Source: Candidatus Omnitrophota bacterium | GTDB taxonomy: Bacteria; Omnitrophota; Gorgyraeia; Zapsychrales; Fredricksoniimonadaceae | Assembly: GCA_002753465.1 (NCBI GenBank) | Contig: PEAF01000011.1 | Span: 1-46,069 of the forward strand | DNA: 46,069 nucleotides | Direction: 5' to 3' | Shown: positions 10,528-44,453 of the stretch, piece after piece | Numbering within the stretch: position 1 is the stretch's first letter | Layout: each line of letters starts with the position of its first letter | Made by a program: the position numbers and the translations under genes | The notes under the pieces: generated by a model | Database searches by the model: none | What the model was told of the DNA's origin: nothing | What the model saw: only the letters and a program-made list of their open reading frames with translations

Positions 10528-12530
10528 AGAGGTTAGTACTTATTATCGGGTTAATGTTCGCGGGTGTCGGCTCGCTCTGGGCCCAGGAAGTCAAGGATCT
10601 TGGGCAGATCGTGGTAACGCCGGACCGCTACGTTTCGGATGCGTCCGAGGCTGGTTCATACGTGACGGTCATTACGCGCCGTGATATTGCCGCATCAGGG
10701 GCGTTCACGCTGCCAGATCTTTTGGTCAGACAGGCGGGTGTTCATGTGTATAACAAAGGAAGTCAAAAGAGTTCCGTCATAGATATGGGCGGGTACAATG
10801 ATGCCGCGGTGAGCAATGTGCTGGTCATGCAAAACGGCCGCAGGCTTAACCCTTCAGATTCATCGGGGCCTGACCTAGCACAGATTCCGCTGGATACGAT
10901 CGAACGGATCGAGATCGTGCGCGGTGGGGCTTCTGTGCTTTACGGTGATAATGCGGTGGGCGGCGTGGTTAATATCATTACCCGCAGCGGGCACGAAGGG
11001 GTGAATGGCTCCATTGCAACCGAGCTCGGAAGTTATGATCGTAAGAAGCTGAGTGCTGATGTGAGTGCCGGGAAAAAGGACCTTACGGTGTATGTGTTTG
11101 GCGGGACGGAGCGGACCAACGGGTATCGTACGAACAATGCTTTTCAGGCCTCTGATGGGCAGGTTCGTTTGAACTGGAAAGCGGTGGAACTTTTGTCGCT
11201 GGGGATCGAGGCTGGCTGGCATGAGGATGATTATGGTTTGCCTAGCGGTTTGCATGCGGATCAGCTTGGCTCACTTGGGCGGCGCGGGAGCAGGACCCCG
11301 GATGATTTCGGGGATACACGCGACCGTTATTTACGTTTAACGTCAGAGTGGAAACCTTTTGACGCCAGCGGTGAATTCGGCACTTTGTCTTTGGATTACA
11401 CGCATCGTGACCGGGATACGTATGGTTTTTATTATTACACCAGCCCTGAGTGGGAGTTCTCCAAGACGGGGATACTGAATGATTCGGCCAATTTGAAATA
11501 CAGGATCGAGAAAGATATTGCCGGCAGGAAAGCAGGTTTGACCACAGGGGTTGATGTTGTCAGTGACCGCAGCCATGTGATCGACCAGTATAATCCATGG
11601 TCTTTGCAGGATGTGAATATCGCTAAAAAAGAGCAGGGTTATTATTTTCTGGCCCAGTACGATGTTCTAGATAAGTTGACAGCTGATATTGGCGGGCGCC
11701 ACGAGAAAGCGGACTATACGTTCATCAGCCATGACATGGGGACTAAGGACAAAACGGCTCCGACAGCGAATGTATGGGGCGGCGGTTTGAAGTATGATTA
11801 TGCGCAAGGGTCCAATGTGTTTATTCGTGCGGATGAAACGTTCCGTTTTCTTAATACGGATGAGTATTTCAGCCGTTGGACGGGTCTGAATACGACGCTG
11901 CGTCAACAAACGGGGATCGATTACAGGGCAGGGGTTAAGCATGCCTTCGGTGAAGTTTTTGAGGCAAGGCTGACGCCGTTTATGACATTGAATAAAGAGG
12001 AGATCTTTCTGGATCCAACTGTGAGCCCTGGCAACAACAATAATTACGGGCGTACGCGTCGTTTGGGTGTGGATCTGGGACAGACATTCCATATGGTCCC
12101 TGCCTTGAAAGTGGCTGGATTGAGATCAACGGATATCAATGTGGATTATACGTACTTGGATGCTGAGTTTTCCGGAGGTTCATTTGGTGGCAAACGCTTG
12201 CCTATGACGCCCAGACATCAGGTTTCTGTCGGGATGAATATAGCTGCCAAGTCGGGGTTGTCGCTCAATGTGATGGGGCGTTTTCTGGGGGCTCAGTATG
12301 GGATCAATGATGATGCGAACAGGCGCGCGCCGATCAAAGCACGCGTGATTGCCGATACGCGCTTAGGGTATGCGTTTAATCCAAATTGGGATACGTTCGT
12401 GGGAGTTAATAACGTTTTTGACAAGCGTTACTACGAGTATGTTGCTTTTGGGGCAGGGGCATCGACCAACATTGATTACTATCCCGCCATTGGCCGCAAT
12501 TATGTGGCAGGGATGAAGTATAAGTTTTAA
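10524..12530 (+). CDS. btuB: TonB-dependent receptor, BtuB-like
   Basis: TonB box-like 'LGQIVVTPDRY', plug domain 'IERIEIVRGGASVLYGDNAVGGVVNIITRSG', terminal barrel strand ending in F; in btu operon. Confidence 0.9.
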   Translation: MKRLVLIIGLMFAGVGSLWAQEVKDLGQIVVTPDRYVSDASEAGSYVTVITRRDIAASGAFTLPDLLVRQAGVHVYNKGSQKSSVIDMGGYNDAAVSNVLVMQNGRRLNPSDSSGPDLAQIPLDTIERIEIVRGGASVLYGDNAVGGVVNIITRSGHEGVNGSIATELGSYDRKKLSADVSAGKKDLTVYVFGGTERTNGYRTNNAFQASDGQVRLNWKAVELLSLGIEAGWHEDDYGLPSGLHADQLGSLGRRGSRTPDDFGDTRDRYLRLTSEWKPFDASGEFGTLSLDYTHRDRDTYGFYYYTSPEWEFSKTGILNDSANLKYRIEKDIAGRKAGLTTGVDVVSDRSHVIDQYNPWSLQDVNIAKKEQGYYFLAQYDVLDKLTADIGGRHEKADYTFISHDMGTKDKTAPTANVWGGGLKYDYAQGSNVFIRADETFRFLNTDEYFSRWTGLNTTLRQQTGIDYRAGVKHAFGEVFEARLTPFMTLNKEEIFLDPTVSPGNNNNYGRTRRLGVDLGQTFHMVPALKVAGLRSTDINVDYTYLDAEFSGGSFGGKRLPMTPRHQVSVGMNIAAKSGLSLNVMGRFLGAQYGINDDANRRAPIKARVIADTRLGYAFNPNWDTFVGVNNVFDKRYYEYVAFGAGASTNIDYYPAIGRNYVAGMKYKF

Positions 12531-12544
12531 AGTTTTAGAATCAG

Positions 12545-12599
12545 AATTACGGGGACATGTACCAAATTGCTTTTTAATTGGGTACGTGTCCCCGTAATT
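12545..12599. repeat. 55-bp palindromic intergenic element, copy 1
   Basis: aattacggggacatgtaccaaatt-gctttt-taattgggtacgtgtccccgtaatt; near-perfect inverted repeat. Confidence 0.9.
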
Positions 12600-12775
12600 A
12601 TTCCCCTAAATACTCACACTATCAATCAGTTACAACATTTCAAGATAACGTTACCAGACAGGGTGTCATCTACCCTTGTTTTAGTTATCTTTTTACATAT
12701 ATATTTATACGTGGTGGAGGTCGTTGTGCAGGAAGCGTATTCTATATATAGGTGTGGCCTAAGGGGCGGCCGATT

Positions 12776-15700
12776 ATGCGGAAGATAACATCATTCTTTA
12801 TCCTTATAGCATTTGTCCTGAGTTGTGTGATGCCCCCGCAGGGCTTTGCCCAGTCATTAACAGCTATTGGTTTGATGCCGGCACCTGGTACCCAGGTGAG
12901 TTTGACAGGTTCTTATACGCCTACGCACCTCAAAGGCATGGTGATCAATCCCAATGATCCATTCAAATTCGATTTTATCGTCTACCGTGGTGATGAAAAG
13001 CTTACACCCGAACAGAAACAGACCGAATATCCCAAGTTGATCAAATATTTTCTGGCGTCTTTGTCCGTTCCTGATACAGATCAGTGGGTCAACTTATCGC
13101 CTTACGAAAAAGAGCGGATTATCCCGGATAATTTTGGATTGACGGAGATGGGGCGTGACCTTTTGGCGCAGGATTACCTTCTTAAACAGGTCGCAGCATC
13201 GTTGACCAACCCCGATACAGATCTGGGTAAACAGTTTTGGGATGAAGTTTACGCCAAGTCGTATGAGAAATTTGGAACGACGGATATCCCTACGGATGTG
13301 TTCAATAAAGTTTGGATCACGCCGGATAAAGCTGTTGTCTTTGAAAAGGGGAATGCCGTGGTCATCATCGAGCATCATTTAAAAGTGCAGATGGAGAGCG
13401 ATTATAGGGCTATGCAGATGAACGCGGCCACGACGGCAACAGAACAGGATAATGAAGCGGTAAGGATCTCCAAGCAGGTGATGCGCGAGGTCATTATCCC
13501 GGCGATCGAAAAAGAGGTGAATGAAGGCAAGAGCTTTGCTCCGGTGCGGCAGGTTTATGGCGGCATGCTTTTGGCCACGTGGTATAAACGCGCACTCAGG
13601 GAATCGATTTTGGGCAAGGTTTATGCGGATCAGGGCAAGGTCAAGGGTATTGACCAGGACCCGGCGAATAATCAGCAGATTTATCAGGAATATGTCAAGG
13701 CGTTCAAGGTGGGCGTTTTTAATATGATCAAGGAAGATGTGGACCGCTACTCGCAGGAGATGATCCCGCGCAAGTATTTCTCCGGCGGTCTAAAGAATGA
13801 TTTTGCTCAGGTGTTAGTGATCGACCATACTCAGGCCGGTGAGGTGAAAGCACGAGAGATGATCAGCGATGACGACATCGTTAAGACTGAAATGAAGAAT
13901 TCAGACAGCTCAGCTCAGGACCGTGCCAGGGATTGGGTTACTGGTCAAGACGGCACGCTTATGGAACGATTTTCGAACGAAGGTATGCAGGCGTCGATTG
14001 ATCATGTTTGGAGTAACCCTGTCCTGAAGGAAGATATTTTAAGTATGGCAGGGTTAAAGGAATTGAAGAATCCCAGGATAATGTATGGCGGGCAGGGAAG
14101 CACAAAAGATGTTGCTTTTATTAAAGGGCAGGATGCTGACGGGAAATCGATTTCCATTGCGGTGAGGTTTTATAAATCGAATCATACGCCTTTTAAGAAG
14201 ATCGATGCGTTTGCGCAAGAGGAAGTTGCCGCGAATCTTGAAGACACGACTTCCGTGAAAGTATTCGGGTATCATTCATTTGCAGATTACTACAACAATA
14301 AGGCTATCAATGAGCTGGAGGATACTGTATTTACGGGCGCTGGATATGCAGGATTTTCAGTTGGTCAATATCTTCCATATAAGGTGACCGCATTAGAGAA
14401 CTCAGGGTTAAAGAGCAGTAATGTATATGCAGGGTTAATAGCTACGACTCTTTTAAGGTGGCTATTAAAAGGTGAATTTATGGGTGATCTTAAATTTGAG
14501 AATTTCGGTGTCGATACTGACGGTGCGGTTAAGATCATTGATACAGGGGATATGCATCAGGTGAGTTATGCGGACAGTGTTGTCAATGAACTGATATCAT
14601 TTTTCGAGAAAAAGGGATTATTAACTGATCCTGTTCAGAAGAAAGAGATATTAAAAGGGTTTAATTTGGGGCTGTCAAGGTTTTGGGATTTACAGCCTGA
14701 AAGTTTCCAAAAGTTGATGGACGGCCCTGATGAGCTCAATGCCATCCTTAATATTGAAACTAGTGTTAATAATTATATTAATCCCGGGGATCATGCTCAA
14801 GTTGATGCCGCGATGCAAGGATGGCGGGGGACGCAGAAGAAGTTCGAACGCCGGAAAAACACCGAAGCATATATTATGAGAGCCCTCAAGGCTGCTGGTG
14901 TTGCTGTTGCGGGGGTTGCCATGTATGGGATTATTAATTTGGGTACTTCAGCCGCAGCGCAGAGAAGTTATCCGGTGCCGAACATGCCAACCGTGAAGGT
15001 TGTTAAAGTTTATGATCAGAAAGGCCATGCTACGGCGGTTTCCATTGATGAAGCCAGTCCTGAGAATAATGCTGTTTTGAGTAAAGACCGTGCGATGAAG
15101 TCAACATTAGTGGCTGCCGCGATCTTGTTGGCTACGTTTATGAATGTTTCTTTGGCATCTGCGGCCGGTATTAATACGAAGACTCCTGATTCTCAGGAGT
15201 TGTCGGTAAAGAAAGAAATTACCGCTGATCCGATATTAGTAGAGTTGAATCGACTGCAAAGGGGTGCTGTTAATCCTTTCTTGATCCATAAGCAGGGCAA
15301 AGGATCATCAGGTTTTATGTCGATAAGCTTGGATAAATTAAGAGAAAACCTTAAGAATCCCGACACACTTACTGTGTTTTTTGGTTTAATGATGAAGAAT
15401 GTTTATTCGAGTTTTGAAGTTCCTGAAAGTGTTATGCCTTCTGATATTGTTAAAGAGCTTAAAGGCCTCACGAAGGGACTAACCATTGAAGGATCAAATA
15501 TTTCACCCCTCTTGCAAGAAGCGGTTAAGTTTGACGCACGCGACATTGCCAAGACGGAGGCCGTTAAACTTTATTATGATGCTAATAATGGCAATGAGAT
15601 CGGGGTCTTATTCTTTGATCGTATTTCTTCGGCAGATGTTAAAGAGAACGTGGGTGGTATTGACATGAATGCCGCTAATCTGAACATGCAGATCAAGCGT

Positions 15701-15820
15701 GACGGGGCTGGTGTTCCATTGCCTGTCAGCCAGCAGGATCTTGAGAATATCCGCATTGACGGCCTTGTGCCCGTGATCCTGGATATTAAACCGGCAGCGG
15801 GGATACCGTTATTTAGTTGA
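12776..15820 (+). CDS. Large secreted multidomain protein with central protein-kinase/APH-like signature
   Basis: Signal peptide MRKITSFFILIAFVLSCVMPPQGFAQS; kinase-like 'MYGGQGSTKDVAFIKG..ISIAVRFYK' and 'GDLKFENFGVDTDGAVKIIDTGD'; internal hydrophobic AxA-like segments. ATG 12776 in frame with ORF-track start 12752. Confidence 0.8.
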   Translation: MRKITSFFILIAFVLSCVMPPQGFAQSLTAIGLMPAPGTQVSLTGSYTPTHLKGMVINPNDPFKFDFIVYRGDEKLTPEQKQTEYPKLIKYFLASLSVPDTDQWVNLSPYEKERIIPDNFGLTEMGRDLLAQDYLLKQVAASLTNPDTDLGKQFWDEVYAKSYEKFGTTDIPTDVFNKVWITPDKAVVFEKGNAVVIIEHHLKVQMESDYRAMQMNAATTATEQDNEAVRISKQVMREVIIPAIEKEVNEGKSFAPVRQVYGGMLLATWYKRALRESILGKVYADQGKVKGIDQDPANNQQIYQEYVKAFKVGVFNMIKEDVDRYSQEMIPRKYFSGGLKNDFAQVLVIDHTQAGEVKAREMISDDDIVKTEMKNSDSSAQDRARDWVTGQDGTLMERFSNEGMQASIDHVWSNPVLKEDILSMAGLKELKNPRIMYGGQGSTKDVAFIKGQDADGKSISIAVRFYKSNHTPFKKIDAFAQEEVAANLEDTTSVKVFGYHSFADYYNNKAINELEDTVFTGAGYAGFSVGQYLPYKVTALENSGLKSSNVYAGLIATTLLRWLLKGEFMGDLKFENFGVDTDGAVKIIDTGDMHQVSYADSVVNELISFFEKKGLLTDPVQKKEILKGFNLGLSRFWDLQPESFQKLMDGPDELNAILNIETSVNNYINPGDHAQVDAAMQGWRGTQKKFERRKNTEAYIMRALKAAGVAVAGVAMYGIINLGTSAAAQRSYPVPNMPTVKVVKVYDQKGHATAVSIDEASPENNAVLSKDRAMKSTLVAAAILLATFMNVSLASAAGINTKTPDSQELSVKKEITADPILVELNRLQRGAVNPFLIHKQGKGSSGFMSISLDKLRENLKNPDTLTVFFGLMMKNVYSSFEVPESVMPSDIVKELKGLTKGLTIEGSNISPLLQEAVKFDARDIAKTEAVKLYYDANNGNEIGVLFFDRISSADVKENVGGIDMNAANLNMQIKRDGAGVPLPVSQQDLENIRIDGLVPVILDIKPAAGIPLFS

Positions 15821-15832
15821 TGATTGACATGT

Positions 15833-15887
15833 AATTAAGGGGACACGTACCAAATTAAAAGGTAATTTGGTACGTGTCCCCTTAATT
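15833..15887. repeat. 55-bp palindromic intergenic element, copy 2 (perfect 25-bp arms)
   Basis: aattaaggggacacgtaccaaatta-aaagg-taatttggtacgtgtccccttaatt. Confidence 0.95.
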
Positions 15888-15889
15888 CT

Positions 15890-18800
15890 TTATGCCAATA
15901 CCGGCGCGAGCCATTTAGCCATCACATCAACGCTCATACCTTTGCGTCGGGCATAATCTTCAAGTTGAGTGCGGTCAATATGCCCGAGCGGAAAATAGGT
16001 CGATCCCGGGTGGGCGAAGTATTGCCCGCATACGGAAGCGGCAGGCGTCATCATGAGGCTTTCGGTCAGCCCGATACCCGTAAGTGCGGTGGCATTGAGC
16101 AAATTAAAGAGCGTGATCTTTTCTGTATGATCAGGGCAGGCCGGATAGCCGGGTGCCGGGCGTATGCCGCGATAGCGCGCGCTGAGGATATCATCCAGTG
16201 AAAGATCTTCGTTGGGAGAGTAGCCCCAGTAAGTCTTGCGTACGTTCTCATGCAGCACTTCGGTAAAAGCTTCCGCGAGGCGGTCAGCCAGGGTTTTTAA
16301 GAGCATGACTTTATAGCCGTCATTGTCGACATATTTGATAGCTTCGTCCATGCCTATACCGCCAGTAGCCGCAAACCCGCCGATGTAATCTTTAATGCCG
16401 CTTTCTTTGGGCGCAATAAGGTCCGCGATCGCCATGAAAGGCTGGTCAGGATCGGTCCTCACACCTTGCTGGCGCAGGGAATGGAAGGTCGCGATCTTTT
16501 GAGCGCGCGATTCATCCGCATAGACCTCAATATCTTCACCGACGCTGTTAGCCGCAAATAAACCGACAACGCCGTTGCATGTCAGGAGTTTCTTGGCCAT
16601 GATCTCGTCAAGCATGTTCTGAGCGTCGTGGTAAAGTTTGGCTACTTCAGCACCGACCTTGGCATCCTTTAAGATCCCGGGATAGCGGCCTTTGAATCCC
16701 CACGCAAGGCAGAAAAATGACCAGTCGATCTTCTCGCGAACAGCCCTGATATCAAACCCTTTGAATGTTTTGGTCCCTAAAAATGATGGTGTGGTGATGG
16801 GCACGTTTTTCCAGTCGCTCACCATTTTGCCGCGGCGGGCTTCAGCGAGGGGGACTAATTTCCACTGTGAACGCTCTTTTTCAAAACTTTCACGCACCTT
16901 AGTCTGATGCGCCTTATGTTCGGCAATAAACGCATCGCGTGTCGCCGGGTTCATAAGGCAGCGGCAAGCGCCGACGCTCTTGGACGCATCTTTCATATGG
17001 ACCACCGGGCCAGAATAGGCAGGGGCGATCTTGACCGCGGTATGCGCTTCGGACGTTGTCGCACCACCTAAAGTCAGCGGGATGGTAAATCCCTGTGCTT
17101 CCATTTCTGTGGCGATATGGACCATTTCATCGAGTGATGGTGTAATGAGCCCTGAAAGCCCGATGATGTCAGCCTTGAGCTCCCTGGCTTTGGCCAGGAT
17201 CGTGGCGCAGGGCACCATGACGCCCAGGTCAATGATCTCAAAATTATTACACGCCAGTACAACGCTGGCAATATTCTTGCCGATATCGTGCACATCACCT
17301 TTAACGGTGGCCATGAGGATACGTCCGGCAGACCTGGCTGATCCGGCTTTATCTTTCTCGATAGCCGGCTGCAGATAAGCCACGGCTTTTTTCATCACAC
17401 GCGCGCTTTTAACGACCTGAGGCAGGAACATTTTTCCTGAGCCGAACAGTTCACCCACATGGTTCATGCCATCCATTAAAGGGCCTTCAATGATGGAGAG
17501 AGGTTTCGGGTATTTCTTTAATGCTTCTTCAAGGTCGGCATCAATGAAGTCTGTAATGCCTTTGACCATGGCATGGGCGAGGCGTGCTTCAAGTGTTTCA
17601 CTGCGCCAGGCCTGATCTTCGACGATCTTTTTGCCTTGATCCTTAAGGGTTTGGGCAAAGCTGATAAGTTTCTCAGTTGATTCGCCGTTGCGGTTAAGGA
17701 CAACATCTTCGACTAAATTCAAAAATTCGGCCGGGATCTGGTCAAGGACCGTGATCATGCCGGCATTAACGATACCCATATCCATGCCGGCCTTGATGGC
17801 GTGGTAGAGGAATACAGAGTGCATGGCCTCACGCACATGGTCATTGCCCCGGAATGAGAAAGATACATTGCTCACGCCGCCGGAAACACGGCAGTGGGGC
17901 AGGGTGGCTTTGATCGTGCGGGTCGCTTCAATGAAATCGACCGCATAATTGTTGTGGGCATCAATACCTGTCGCGACGGCAAAGATGTTGGGGTCGAAAA
18001 TGATATCTTCTGGCGCAAAACCGATCTCATCGACCAGGATCTTATAGGCGCGGGTGCAGATAGTGACCTTGCGTTGCTGCGTATCAGCCTGGCCATTTTC
18101 GTCAAAAGCCATAACGACGGTGGCCGCACCGTATTTCTTGATCTGCCGGGCGCGGTCTTTGAAAAGTTCTTCACCTTCCTTAAGCGAAATTGAATTGACG
18201 ATACCTTTGCCTTGCAGGCATTTGAGGCCAGCCTCGATCACATCCCATTTAGAGGAGTCGATCATGACAGGGACGCGCGCAATATCCGGCTCGCTCATGG
18301 CCAGGTTCAGGAATTTGACCATGGCGGCTTTGGAATCCAGCATGGCCTCGTCCATATTGATATCGATGACCTGGGCACCGGCATCAACCTGCTGGCGGGC
18401 GATGACCAGGGCTTCATCATAGTTGCCGTCAATGATAAGCTTGGCGAATTTTCTGGAACCTGTCACATTGGTGCGTTCGCCGACATTAACAAAGTTCATG
18501 CCTTCACGCAGGATGAGCGGTTCAAGCCCGCTGTAATTGGAAACAGGTGTTACGGTAGGTACCGGACGCGGCGGTATATTCTTTACTGTTTCAGCAATGG
18601 CTTTAATATGGTCCGGGGTTGAACCGCAACAGCCACCCAGAATATTAATGAGTTTATGATCTGCAAAGTCTTTGACGAGGGCGGCCATTTCAGCCGGCGT
18701 CTGGTCGTATTGCCCGAATTGATTGGGCAAGCCCGCATTAGGATACGCGCTGATGAACGTGTCCGCCATGGAGGACAATGTTTCAATGTGGGGCTTCATA

Positions 18801-19564
18801 TCTTTAGCACCCAGCGCGCAGTTGAAGCCGATGGCCAGCGGGTTGGCGTGCTTGACCGAGATCCAGAAAGCTTCGGCTGTCTGGCCTGAAAGTGTGCGGC
18901 CTGAGGCGTCCGTGATGGTGCCGGAAAGCATGATAGGAAGCGGGCGTTGGGCCGACTCATTATAGGTTAGCGCGGCATAGATCGCGGCCTTGGCGTTCAG
19001 GGTGTCGAATATGGTCTCAATGAGCAGCAGGTCAACTTCGCCCTCACCAAGGCCTTTTATCTGTTCGCCATAGGCTCTGACTAATTGGTCAAAATTGACG
19101 GCGCGGTAAGACGGGTCATTCACGTCTGGGGAGATGGACGCGGTGCGATTGGTCGGGCCAATGGAACCGGCTACAAAACGCGGCTTTTGAGGATCTTTGG
19201 CCGTGAATTCATCGGCGACTTTACGTGCTAATTTCGCGGAGGCCACGTTCAGTTCATGCACGAGGCTTTCCATGTGATAATCCGCCATGCTGATGGCATT
19301 GGCGTTGAAGGTATTGCTTTCAATGATGTCCGCGCCCGCTTCCAGATAAAGTTTGTGGATGCCGGCAATGACATCAGGGCGTGTGATAGAAAGAAGGTCA
19401 TTATTGCCTTTAAGATCACTGGCCCAGTCCTTGAAACGGGGTCCGCGATAGTCCTCTTCAGTCAGTTTGTGCCGCTGGATCATGGTGCCCATGGCGCCGT
19501 CGAGAATGAGGATGCGTTTTCTAAGTTCTTGGGCGATGGGGTATCGGGTAAATTTATTTTTCAT
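15890..19564 (-). CDS. metH: Cobalamin-dependent methionine synthase MetH
   Basis: '[14 protein letters not shown]', Zn site '[11 protein letters not shown]', '[18 protein letters not shown]', B12-binding '[12 protein letters not shown]', activation-domain '[14 protein letters not shown]'. Confidence 0.98.
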
Positions 19565-19570
19565 GGTATG

Positions 19571-19599
19571 ACGATAATGCAAAGTTTTGGCAATGTCAA
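19571..19599 (-). promoter_or_regulatory. metH promoter, apparently leaderless
   Basis: On - strand: TTGACA, 17 bp, TATCGT, 6 nt, ATG. Confidence 0.55.
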
Positions 19600-32760: not shown

Positions 32761-33624
32761 ATGGTAGCAACAATCGGTGTGATCGGCGGCAGTGGTTTGT
32801 ATCAGATCGAAGGTATTCAGGATGTCAAAGAGGTGGCAGTTAAAACGCCTTTTGGGGATCCGTCAGACAAGTTCATTACGGGTACGCTTGATGGGACGCC
32901 GGTTGTATTCCTGCCGCGTCATGGCATTGGCCATCGCATTTCTCCGACCGAGATCAATAATCGCGCGAATATCTGGGCCATGAAGAAGCTGGGTGTTCAG
33001 GCGATCATTTCGGTATCAGCGGTGGGCAGCCTTAAGCTTCAGATCAAGCCCATGGATTTTGTTGTGCCGGATCAGTTCATTGACCGCACCGCGCCGCGCC
33101 GCCATTCGACGTTCTTTACGGACGGTATCGTGGCCCATGTTGGGTTGGCTGAGCCTATTTCAGAGGAGATCGCCGAGATCATTTACAAGGCCTGTGAAAA
33201 AGTCGGGGTTACGGCCCACAAGAATGGGACGTATTTGAATATGGAAGGCCCTCAGTTTTCCACCAAGGCTGAATCAAACCTTTACCGCAGCTGGGGCTGT
33301 GACATCATCGGCATGACCAATTTGCCCGAAGCCAAATTAGCGCGTGAGGCCGAGATCTCCTATGCCACCCTCGCGGCTGTTACAGATTATGACTGCTGGC
33401 ACCATTCCCATGGCAGTGTGACCGTTGAGATGATCATTGAGTATCTTACCAAGAATGTTGTGAGTGCCCGTCAGATCCTTAAGATCGCCATCCCTAAGGC
33501 CGGGAAGCTTAAGAAATTCTCCGCCGCGGATGCGCTTAAGTGTGCGATCATGACAGCGCCTGATCGTATCCCTGAGCAGAAGAAAAAGGATCTGGAGATC
33601 ATCATTGGGAAATACGTTAAGTAA
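32761..33624 (+). CDS. mtnP: S-methyl-5'-thioadenosine phosphorylase
   Basis: 'IGVIGGSGLYQIEGI', 'TPFGDPSDKFITG', 'FLPRHGIGHRISPTEINNRANIWAMKKLG', 'MEGPQFSTKAESNLYRSWGCDIIGMTNLPEAKLAREAEI'. Confidence 0.96.
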   Translation: MVATIGVIGGSGLYQIEGIQDVKEVAVKTPFGDPSDKFITGTLDGTPVVFLPRHGIGHRISPTEINNRANIWAMKKLGVQAIISVSAVGSLKLQIKPMDFVVPDQFIDRTAPRRHSTFFTDGIVAHVGLAEPISEEIAEIIYKACEKVGVTAHKNGTYLNMEGPQFSTKAESNLYRSWGCDIIGMTNLPEAKLAREAEISYATLAAVTDYDCWHHSHGSVTVEMIIEYLTKNVVSARQILKIAIPKAGKLKKFSAADALKCAIMTAPDRIPEQKKKDLEIIIGKYVK

Positions 33625-33634
33625 TTTGATCGGG

Positions 33635-33691
33635 TTTTGCGGGGGCATGTTTCAAATTCGTTGGTCGAATTTGGTACGTGTCTCTGTAATT
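33635..33691. repeat. Palindromic intergenic element, copy 3 (decayed)
   Basis: ttttgcgggggcatgtttcaaattcg...cgaatttggtacgtgtctctgtaatt; right arm close to consensus, left arm degenerate. Confidence 0.8.
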
Positions 33692-43309: not shown

Positions 43310-44383
43310 ATGATCCCACAATTAATTAGATTTATTAAAACACTCTTTGATAATTTTCTTGGCATGTTCTCCAATGACATGGGCATTGACCTTGGTACAG
43401 CGACTACGCTTGTTTTTGTGAAGGGCGAGGGCGTTGTGCTGTGCGAACCGTCCGTTGTGGCCATTGAAAAAGATACCAACCGTGTGGTCGCGGTAGGCGA
43501 TGAGGCCAAGCGCATGCTCGGTCGTACGCCGGATAATATTATCGCTATTCGTCCGATGCGTGACGGCGTCATCTCGGATCCGGAAGTGACCGAGGCCATG
43601 CTTAAATATTTTATCAAGAAAGTCCAGCCCCGTCGTTTTTTGGTCAGGCCCTCCATTGTCATTGCGATCCCGCCCGAGATCAGTGAAGTTGAGAAGCGCG
43701 CGGTCATTGATTCCGCGATCCATGCCGGTGCACGTAATGTTATTTTGATCGAGCAGCCCAAGGCGGCGGCTATCGGCGTCGGCTTACCGGTACAGGAACC
43801 GGGCGGTAACATGGTCATTGATATCGGCGGCGGTACGACGGACTTTGCTGTTATTTCACTCGGCGGCATTGTTTATGCCAAGTCCATCAAGGTTGCGGGT
43901 GATGAGATGGATATGGCCATTATGGAATATCTGCGGCGCACCTATAACATTATGATCGGTGAACGCACGTCGGAAGAGATCAAGATCCGCATCGGTTCTG
44001 CGTATCCTCTGGAAGAAGAATTGAACATGGATGTGCGCGGGCGTGATCTGATCGCTGGTCTGCCTAAAACGATCTCTATCACGTCTGTTGAGATCCGTGA
44101 AGCTCTGGCGGATACGGTACAGGCGATCGTGGATGCGTCAAAATCAACACTTGAGCATACCCCGCCTGAACTTTCAGCGGATCTTATTGATCGCGGCATT
44201 GTTATGGCTGGCGGTGGCTCACTGCTACGCGGGCTGGATAAGCGCATCGCGGATGAAACAGGCTTGCCCGTGCATGTGGCGGATGACCCGACCATCGCTG
44301 TTGTTATGGGTACGGGCGATACGCTCAATATGCCGGCGCATATGCGCAAGCGTCTCATGGCGCAGACCAAATTGGCATTTTAA
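43310..44383 (+). CDS. mreB: Rod shape-determining protein MreB
   Basis: 'DMGIDLGTATTLVFVKGEGVVLCEPSVVAIEKDT', 'VIDIGGGTTDFAVISLGGIV', 'GIVMAGGGSLLRGLDKRI'. Confidence 0.98.
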   Translation: MIPQLIRFIKTLFDNFLGMFSNDMGIDLGTATTLVFVKGEGVVLCEPSVVAIEKDTNRVVAVGDEAKRMLGRTPDNIIAIRPMRDGVISDPEVTEAMLKYFIKKVQPRRFLVRPSIVIAIPPEISEVEKRAVIDSAIHAGARNVILIEQPKAAAIGVGLPVQEPGGNMVIDIGGGTTDFAVISLGGIVYAKSIKVAGDEMDMAIMEYLRRTYNIMIGERTSEEIKIRIGSAYPLEEELNMDVRGRDLIAGLPKTISITSVEIREALADTVQAIVDASKSTLEHTPPELSADLIDRGIVMAGGGSLLRGLDKRIADETGLPVHVADDPTIAVVMGTGDTLNMPAHMRKRLMAQTKLAF

Positions 44384-44394
44384 TACCGTACGTC

Positions 44395-44453
44395 AATTAT
44401 GGGGACACGTACCAAATTCGCTTCACGAATTAATGGTACATGTCCCCATAATT
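44395..44453. repeat. 59-bp palindromic intergenic element, copy 4
   Basis: aattatggggacacgtaccaaattcg...aattaatggtacatgtccccataatt between mreB and mreC. Confidence 0.9.

Follow-up and report, generated by a model that had tools for sequence, protein, structure and literature searches.

The window, by which we mean the whole 46-kb stretch of DNA analysed here, contains four copies of a palindromic repeat, three intact and one decayed. The index element, an intact copy of 59 bp on the minus strand (44395..44453), follows mreB and precedes mreC. It reads AATTAT, a GGGGACACGTACC arm, a loop, a GGTACATGTCCCC arm and ATAATT, which is the layout of the intact copies in general: a 6-base outer arm, a 13-base core arm, the loop, a second 13-base core arm and a second 6-base outer arm. 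Across copies, the outer arm at 44395..44400 (plus strand) covaries with the opposite arm at 44448..44453 (plus strand). The second intact element, of 55 bp (15833..15887), lies between metH (15890-19582, minus strand) and a gene of a paralogue family (12752-15820, plus strand), where the two genes converge; its outer arms are AATTAA/TTAATT, and the variable position is C in both of its inner arms. The third (55 bp, 12545..12599, plus strand) lies 15 bp past the stop codon of a TonB-dependent receptor gene and has outer arms AATTAC/GTAATT. The decayed copy (33635..33691, plus strand) follows a nucleoside phosphorylase gene (PNP_UDP_1), 11 bp from its stop codon, and has outer arms TTTTGC/GTAATT, which have lost their complementarity. 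All four copies start 11-15 bp beyond a stop (12530 to 12545, 15820 to 15833, 33624 to 33635 and 44383 to 44395). Their positions, and the arms of the three intact copies, agree with those in the initial annotation of this DNA. With an 18-mer half-site pattern, for which up to three mismatches were tolerated, seven half-sites were observed in the window versus 0.04 expected from dinucleotide shuffles.

Folded as single-stranded DNA, the window copies gave z = -6 to -12. The eighth core position pairs as C-A on one strand and as G-T on the other in 200 of 229 elements, and one strand folds better for this reason. The index copy forms a fully paired (G-T) hairpin on the minus strand, with a DNA fold of -24.1 there versus -22.3 on the plus strand. 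TnpAREP is known from the literature to recognise imperfect hairpins in a strand-specific manner, and by analogy the same kind of recognition may apply to the Omnitrophota repeats. A search of Rfam with the elements returned no match, and the copies at mreB and mtaP, which are without a T-run, scored as non-terminators.

Repeats in the host genome and beyond

The host genome (G000) is a 2.18-Mb Omnitrophota MAG that is 64% complete. The family extends through it: the 18-mer has 15 half-site matches genome-wide, whereas the reversed control has none, and we count about 11 elements in this incomplete assembly. The inverted doublet forms a single hairpin, copies are dispersed over many sites with unrelated flanks, and most of them are found 2-41 bp downstream of a stop codon. 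The repeats had been described as wholly intergenic, which is correct for the window but not for the genome, in which L008 (G000:C116:34179-34225) lies in frame inside a paralogue-family gene (RGHVPLIREANLVRVP) and L011 (G000:C107:11819-11885) lies in frame inside a GT4 glycosyltransferase gene (RGHVPNSKSELGTCPL). A 53-bp insertion at L008 would break the reading frame unless a further indel occurred, and the pre-insertion bases of this gene were not found in its paralogues.

The core hairpin GGGGACAYGTACC...GGTACRTGTCCCC is spread over at least seven groups of phylum rank. The GTDB species matches listed are from Omnitrophota, Pseudomonadota (Caulobacter, Rhodospirillaceae), Aminicenantes, Acidobacteriota, Syntrophaceae, Bipolaricaulota and Clostridia. 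Within the host's order, 12 of the 81 genomes contain exact-core hairpins, and relatives have more copies than the host. The AATTAN type of outer arm is common to G000, G002 and G026, in two genera, and TAG or GTAG adjoins the GGGG of the core in a few relatives (G001, L068, L201). Some elements depart from the usual layout. In G026, L094:1474 and L108:1496 are composite, with the left arm duplicated and GAAATAA/TTATTTC outer arms at both sites, and two elements from an Acidobacteria MAG and an Aminicenantes MAG (L217:3354 and L200:3016) have 14 and 8 mirrored flank bases, respectively, exceeding the six-base arm. At gene ends that hold the repeat in G000, relatives hold unrelated hairpins, some of them terminator-like (L269 and L270 at fba, L289 and L286 at mreB, L276 at mtaP).

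RAYT genes with related ends

Y1/RAYT genes bracketed on both sides, within about 500 bp, by inverted GGGGACAYGTAC ends were identified in the host's family (L066, L070), Clostridia (L302), Caulobacterales (L307, L311) and Aminicenantes (L324); another RAYT, L325, has a GGGGACAYGTAC end upstream only. A single Y1/RAYT gene, L016, was found in G000, at C131:30924, with a score under the NCBIfam cut-off for REP_Tyr_transpos and above the Pfam cut-off. In a tree of 38 rows, L016 groups with five of the GGGGACAYGTAC-bracketed RAYTs in a clade of 14 rows (97/93). Its inverted ends, TTTCGGGTACACGTAC, are a near variant of the repeat (core variant CGGGTACACGTAC; ends CGGGTACACGTACGAAAT), and because of this difference L016 is a candidate cognate, unproven; no RAYT with exact A-type ends was found in the 64%-complete assembly. 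A hybrid end at C131:29020, AATTAT followed by GGGTACACGTAC (AATTATGGGTACACGTAC), joins a window-type outer arm to the RAYT end core. It lies inside a short segment with L016-type ends on both sides (G000:C131:28981-29101), which is probably a miniature derivative. A domain scan of L016 (E <= 1) returned Y1_Tnp only and detected no C-terminal HTH, and a phage collection gave only one distant Y1 match.

The bracketed RAYT genes in several phyla, the same-clade RAYT in G000 and the hybrid end support the earlier suggestion that the repeats are of REP/REPIN type and linked to RAYTs. As for the cognate transposase itself, the host genome supplies one RAYT from the right clade, but with variant ends.

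Covariation of the outer arms

The three pairs of outer arms in the window had been read as compensatory covariation, suggestive of selection on, or replication via, the folded hairpin. The covariation is real, but it is limited to certain lineages. In G000, position 1, which adjoins GGGG, is complementary in all 10 intact copies, with three pair types among them (3.8 complementary copies expected, p = 0.0004). In G026 the same position is complementary in 12 of 12 copies, and positions 2 and 4 also covary; in both genomes, arm matching is at chance from position 7 on. Among 21 distinct arms, 21 cells were altered on both sides, compared with 7.1 in shuffles, and none of 500 shuffles was as high, a significance that is somewhat overstated because the shuffles keep the relatedness of the copies. 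Matching is seen at position 1 only in G001/G003, and position 1 is at chance in a set of 172 elements from other phyla. Therefore, the covariation belongs to some Omnitrophota lineages and not to the whole family.

Near-identical interiors are found with AATTAA, AATTAT or AATTTC arms, each of them mirrored, and the covariation shows no link to the sequence or lineage of the loop. One-sided departures are about equal on the two arms, and two orthologous copies in G001/G003, which are vertically inherited, have decayed on one side and are uncompensated. Selection on the folded hairpin, the second part of the earlier claim, finds only partial support in these data, given that other phyla lack the match, that it has a sharp limit at six bases and no tie to the loop, and that the two orthologues decay one-sidedly. 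From the sharp boundary, the independence from the loop and the one-sided decay of orthologues, we suggest that the covariation was probably set at insertion rather than through slow compensation.

Some sites carry an element in only one of the two genomes G001 and G003, and these allele pairs come from elements of the GATCC/GCTCTA type. For the G003:199 element, the 3' bases (GGATACTAA..AGTAG) are present in the element-free G001 allele. The G001:35143 pair can be aligned in two ways and is ambiguous because the empty-site TAGATC resembles both flanks; a search of G003 for empty sites of other G001 elements turned up an old copy common to both genomes and a region that has been rearranged. 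One arm of L010 runs straight into the T-tract of a host terminator. The G003:199 allele pair and L010 are in agreement with an arm derived from the target. For copies of the AATTAN type, the search for a clean empty site was negative, relatives being too diverged; the orthologous sequence downstream of fba, tgt, mtaP, mreB and metH in four members of the genus had likewise diverged too far to yield one. Since no AATTAN copy has a clean empty allele, the target origin of the second arm is something we can only infer, and we rate it as roughly equal in likelihood to arms that travel with the element.

Discussion

The mechanism by which REPINs and related repeats spread is unresolved in the literature. 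On balance, and without great confidence, we favour the view that the elements described here are non-autonomous, REPIN-like hairpins mobilised by a RAYT, with a 5' tail that guides insertion and a second arm that comes from the target. Two inverted terminal repeats of a TIRtron-type RAYT would have been joined into a REPIN-like unit, of which the Y1 (HUH) transposase would recognise one folded single strand, the one bearing the G-T wobble. On leaving its site, the element would carry a 5' tail some six bases long and insert beside a target able to pair with that tail, and the target DNA would become the other outer arm. A mismatch resolved in the target's favour would then alter both arms at once, and the cognate RAYT would be predicted to have ends AATTAN-GGGGACAYGTACCAAATT. 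In Pseudomonas fluorescens, REPIN excision leaves the last ~6 bp behind, and pairing between the 5' tail and a target has been proposed as the way in which the symmetric element is restored (Bertels & Rainey 2011, PMC3116915). A 5' motif guides the site of cleavage in one TnpAREP system (Corneloup et al. 2021, PMC8266576). More tentatively, the six-base outer arms could document past guide-target pairing by RAYTs, in which mismatches settled for the target retarget the element. If this is so, the natural copies in many genomes would offer a direct, sequence-only test of insertion and retargeting; otherwise, our results add Omnitrophota and further uncultured phyla to the range of TIRYT-type repeats.

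Alternatively, though we consider this less likely, the REPIN-like elements could be moved by a RAYT with both outer arms carried along, the complementarity being kept by selection for hairpin stability during transposition and not by any input from the target. The AATTAN arms common to three genomes of two genera are in keeping with this idea, full-length TIRtrons match at both outer ends (TTCC in L066 and L070; ATAATTT in L302), and REPIN hairpins with compensatory changes have been reported; the identical arms of L094 and L108 at two sites equally fit carried arms. However, copies with near-identical interiors differ in their arms, one allele pair shows host DNA on the 3' side of the element, and the arm changes in orthologous copies are uncompensated. 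It is improbable that template switching during replication has perfected the palindromes in place, without a transposase. Such homogenisation would account for the excess of mirrored over one-sided changes in the outer arms and for the longer mirrored flanks of a few copies (L217, 14 bp; L200, 8 bp), but not for a mirrored run that ends at six bases in two genomes, for the inner C-A/G-T mismatch retained in most elements, or for the two orthologous copies altered on one side.

We give still less credence to immobile, domesticated RNA hairpins, selected in place as bidirectional terminators or stabilisers of 3' ends. Most copies do closely follow a stop codon, and different hairpins stand in the same places in relatives (fba, mreB), but REPs generally sit after genes, near-identical copies are scattered among unrelated flanks, two copies are in frame within genes and Rfam gave no match. 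The terminator reading is further disfavoured by the copies near mreB and mtaP, with no T-run and no terminator score. Insertion into pre-existing 12-bp palindromes (AATTANN'TAATT), from which mirrored arms would follow trivially, was rejected as extremely improbable because the window has no unoccupied AATTANNTAATT, versus 82 AATTA half-sites and three sites that are occupied.

The repeats are TIRYT-linked and REPIN-like, a known type with an informative outer arm, and the core sequence was not found in print in the literature searched. Its start, GGGGACAC, fits GGGGWSAS, the published consensus for TIRYT/TIRtron ends (Di Nocera et al. 2013, PMC3733652). As with TIRtrons, inverted repeats bracket a Y1 transposase gene in relatives and in other phyla, many phyla are involved, and dispersed dimers are also present. 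However, the TIRtron and TIRYT papers list the repeats mainly as the ends of transposase genes, whereas the dimer described here has six-base covarying outer arms, and the host RAYT has variant ends and no detected HTH domain; a C-terminal HTH is reported for subclass 2.1 transposases (Quentin et al. 2018, PMC6006769), although the name does not depend on it. With the REPINs of P. fluorescens, the repeats share the inverted doublet in one hairpin, a location mostly outside genes, the link to RAYTs and compensatory changes, and the asymmetry of ~6 bp at excision is a further likeness (PMC3116915). They differ in their core, in a copy number of about 11 and in the AATTAN-type copies, in which the GTAG tetranucleotide 5' of the stem is absent in G000. 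The GTAG REP/TnpAREP systems of E. coli, Stenotrophomonas and Marinomonas (PMC8266576) resemble them in the imperfect hairpin and its strand asymmetry; the 5' flank guides cleavage there, whereas in G000 this flank is AATTAN and pairs along its whole length with the flank on the 3' side.

Rickettsia palindromic elements likewise lie in frame in coding genes, as L008 and L011 do, but they are unlike the Omnitrophota repeats in sequence, and the latter are mostly intergenic and RAYT-linked. The paralogue family in which L008 resides is very large. Its members include the window gene at 12752-15820, for which no Pfam match was seen at E 0.001, and G000:C116:34082 (L126). A region of ~160 aa with the motif FDFILDKGD..RLIKYFLAS.TVP..DLWVNLSPYEKDRI has 28-58 matches per genome in five members of the genus, and open frames of the family reach 4897 aa.
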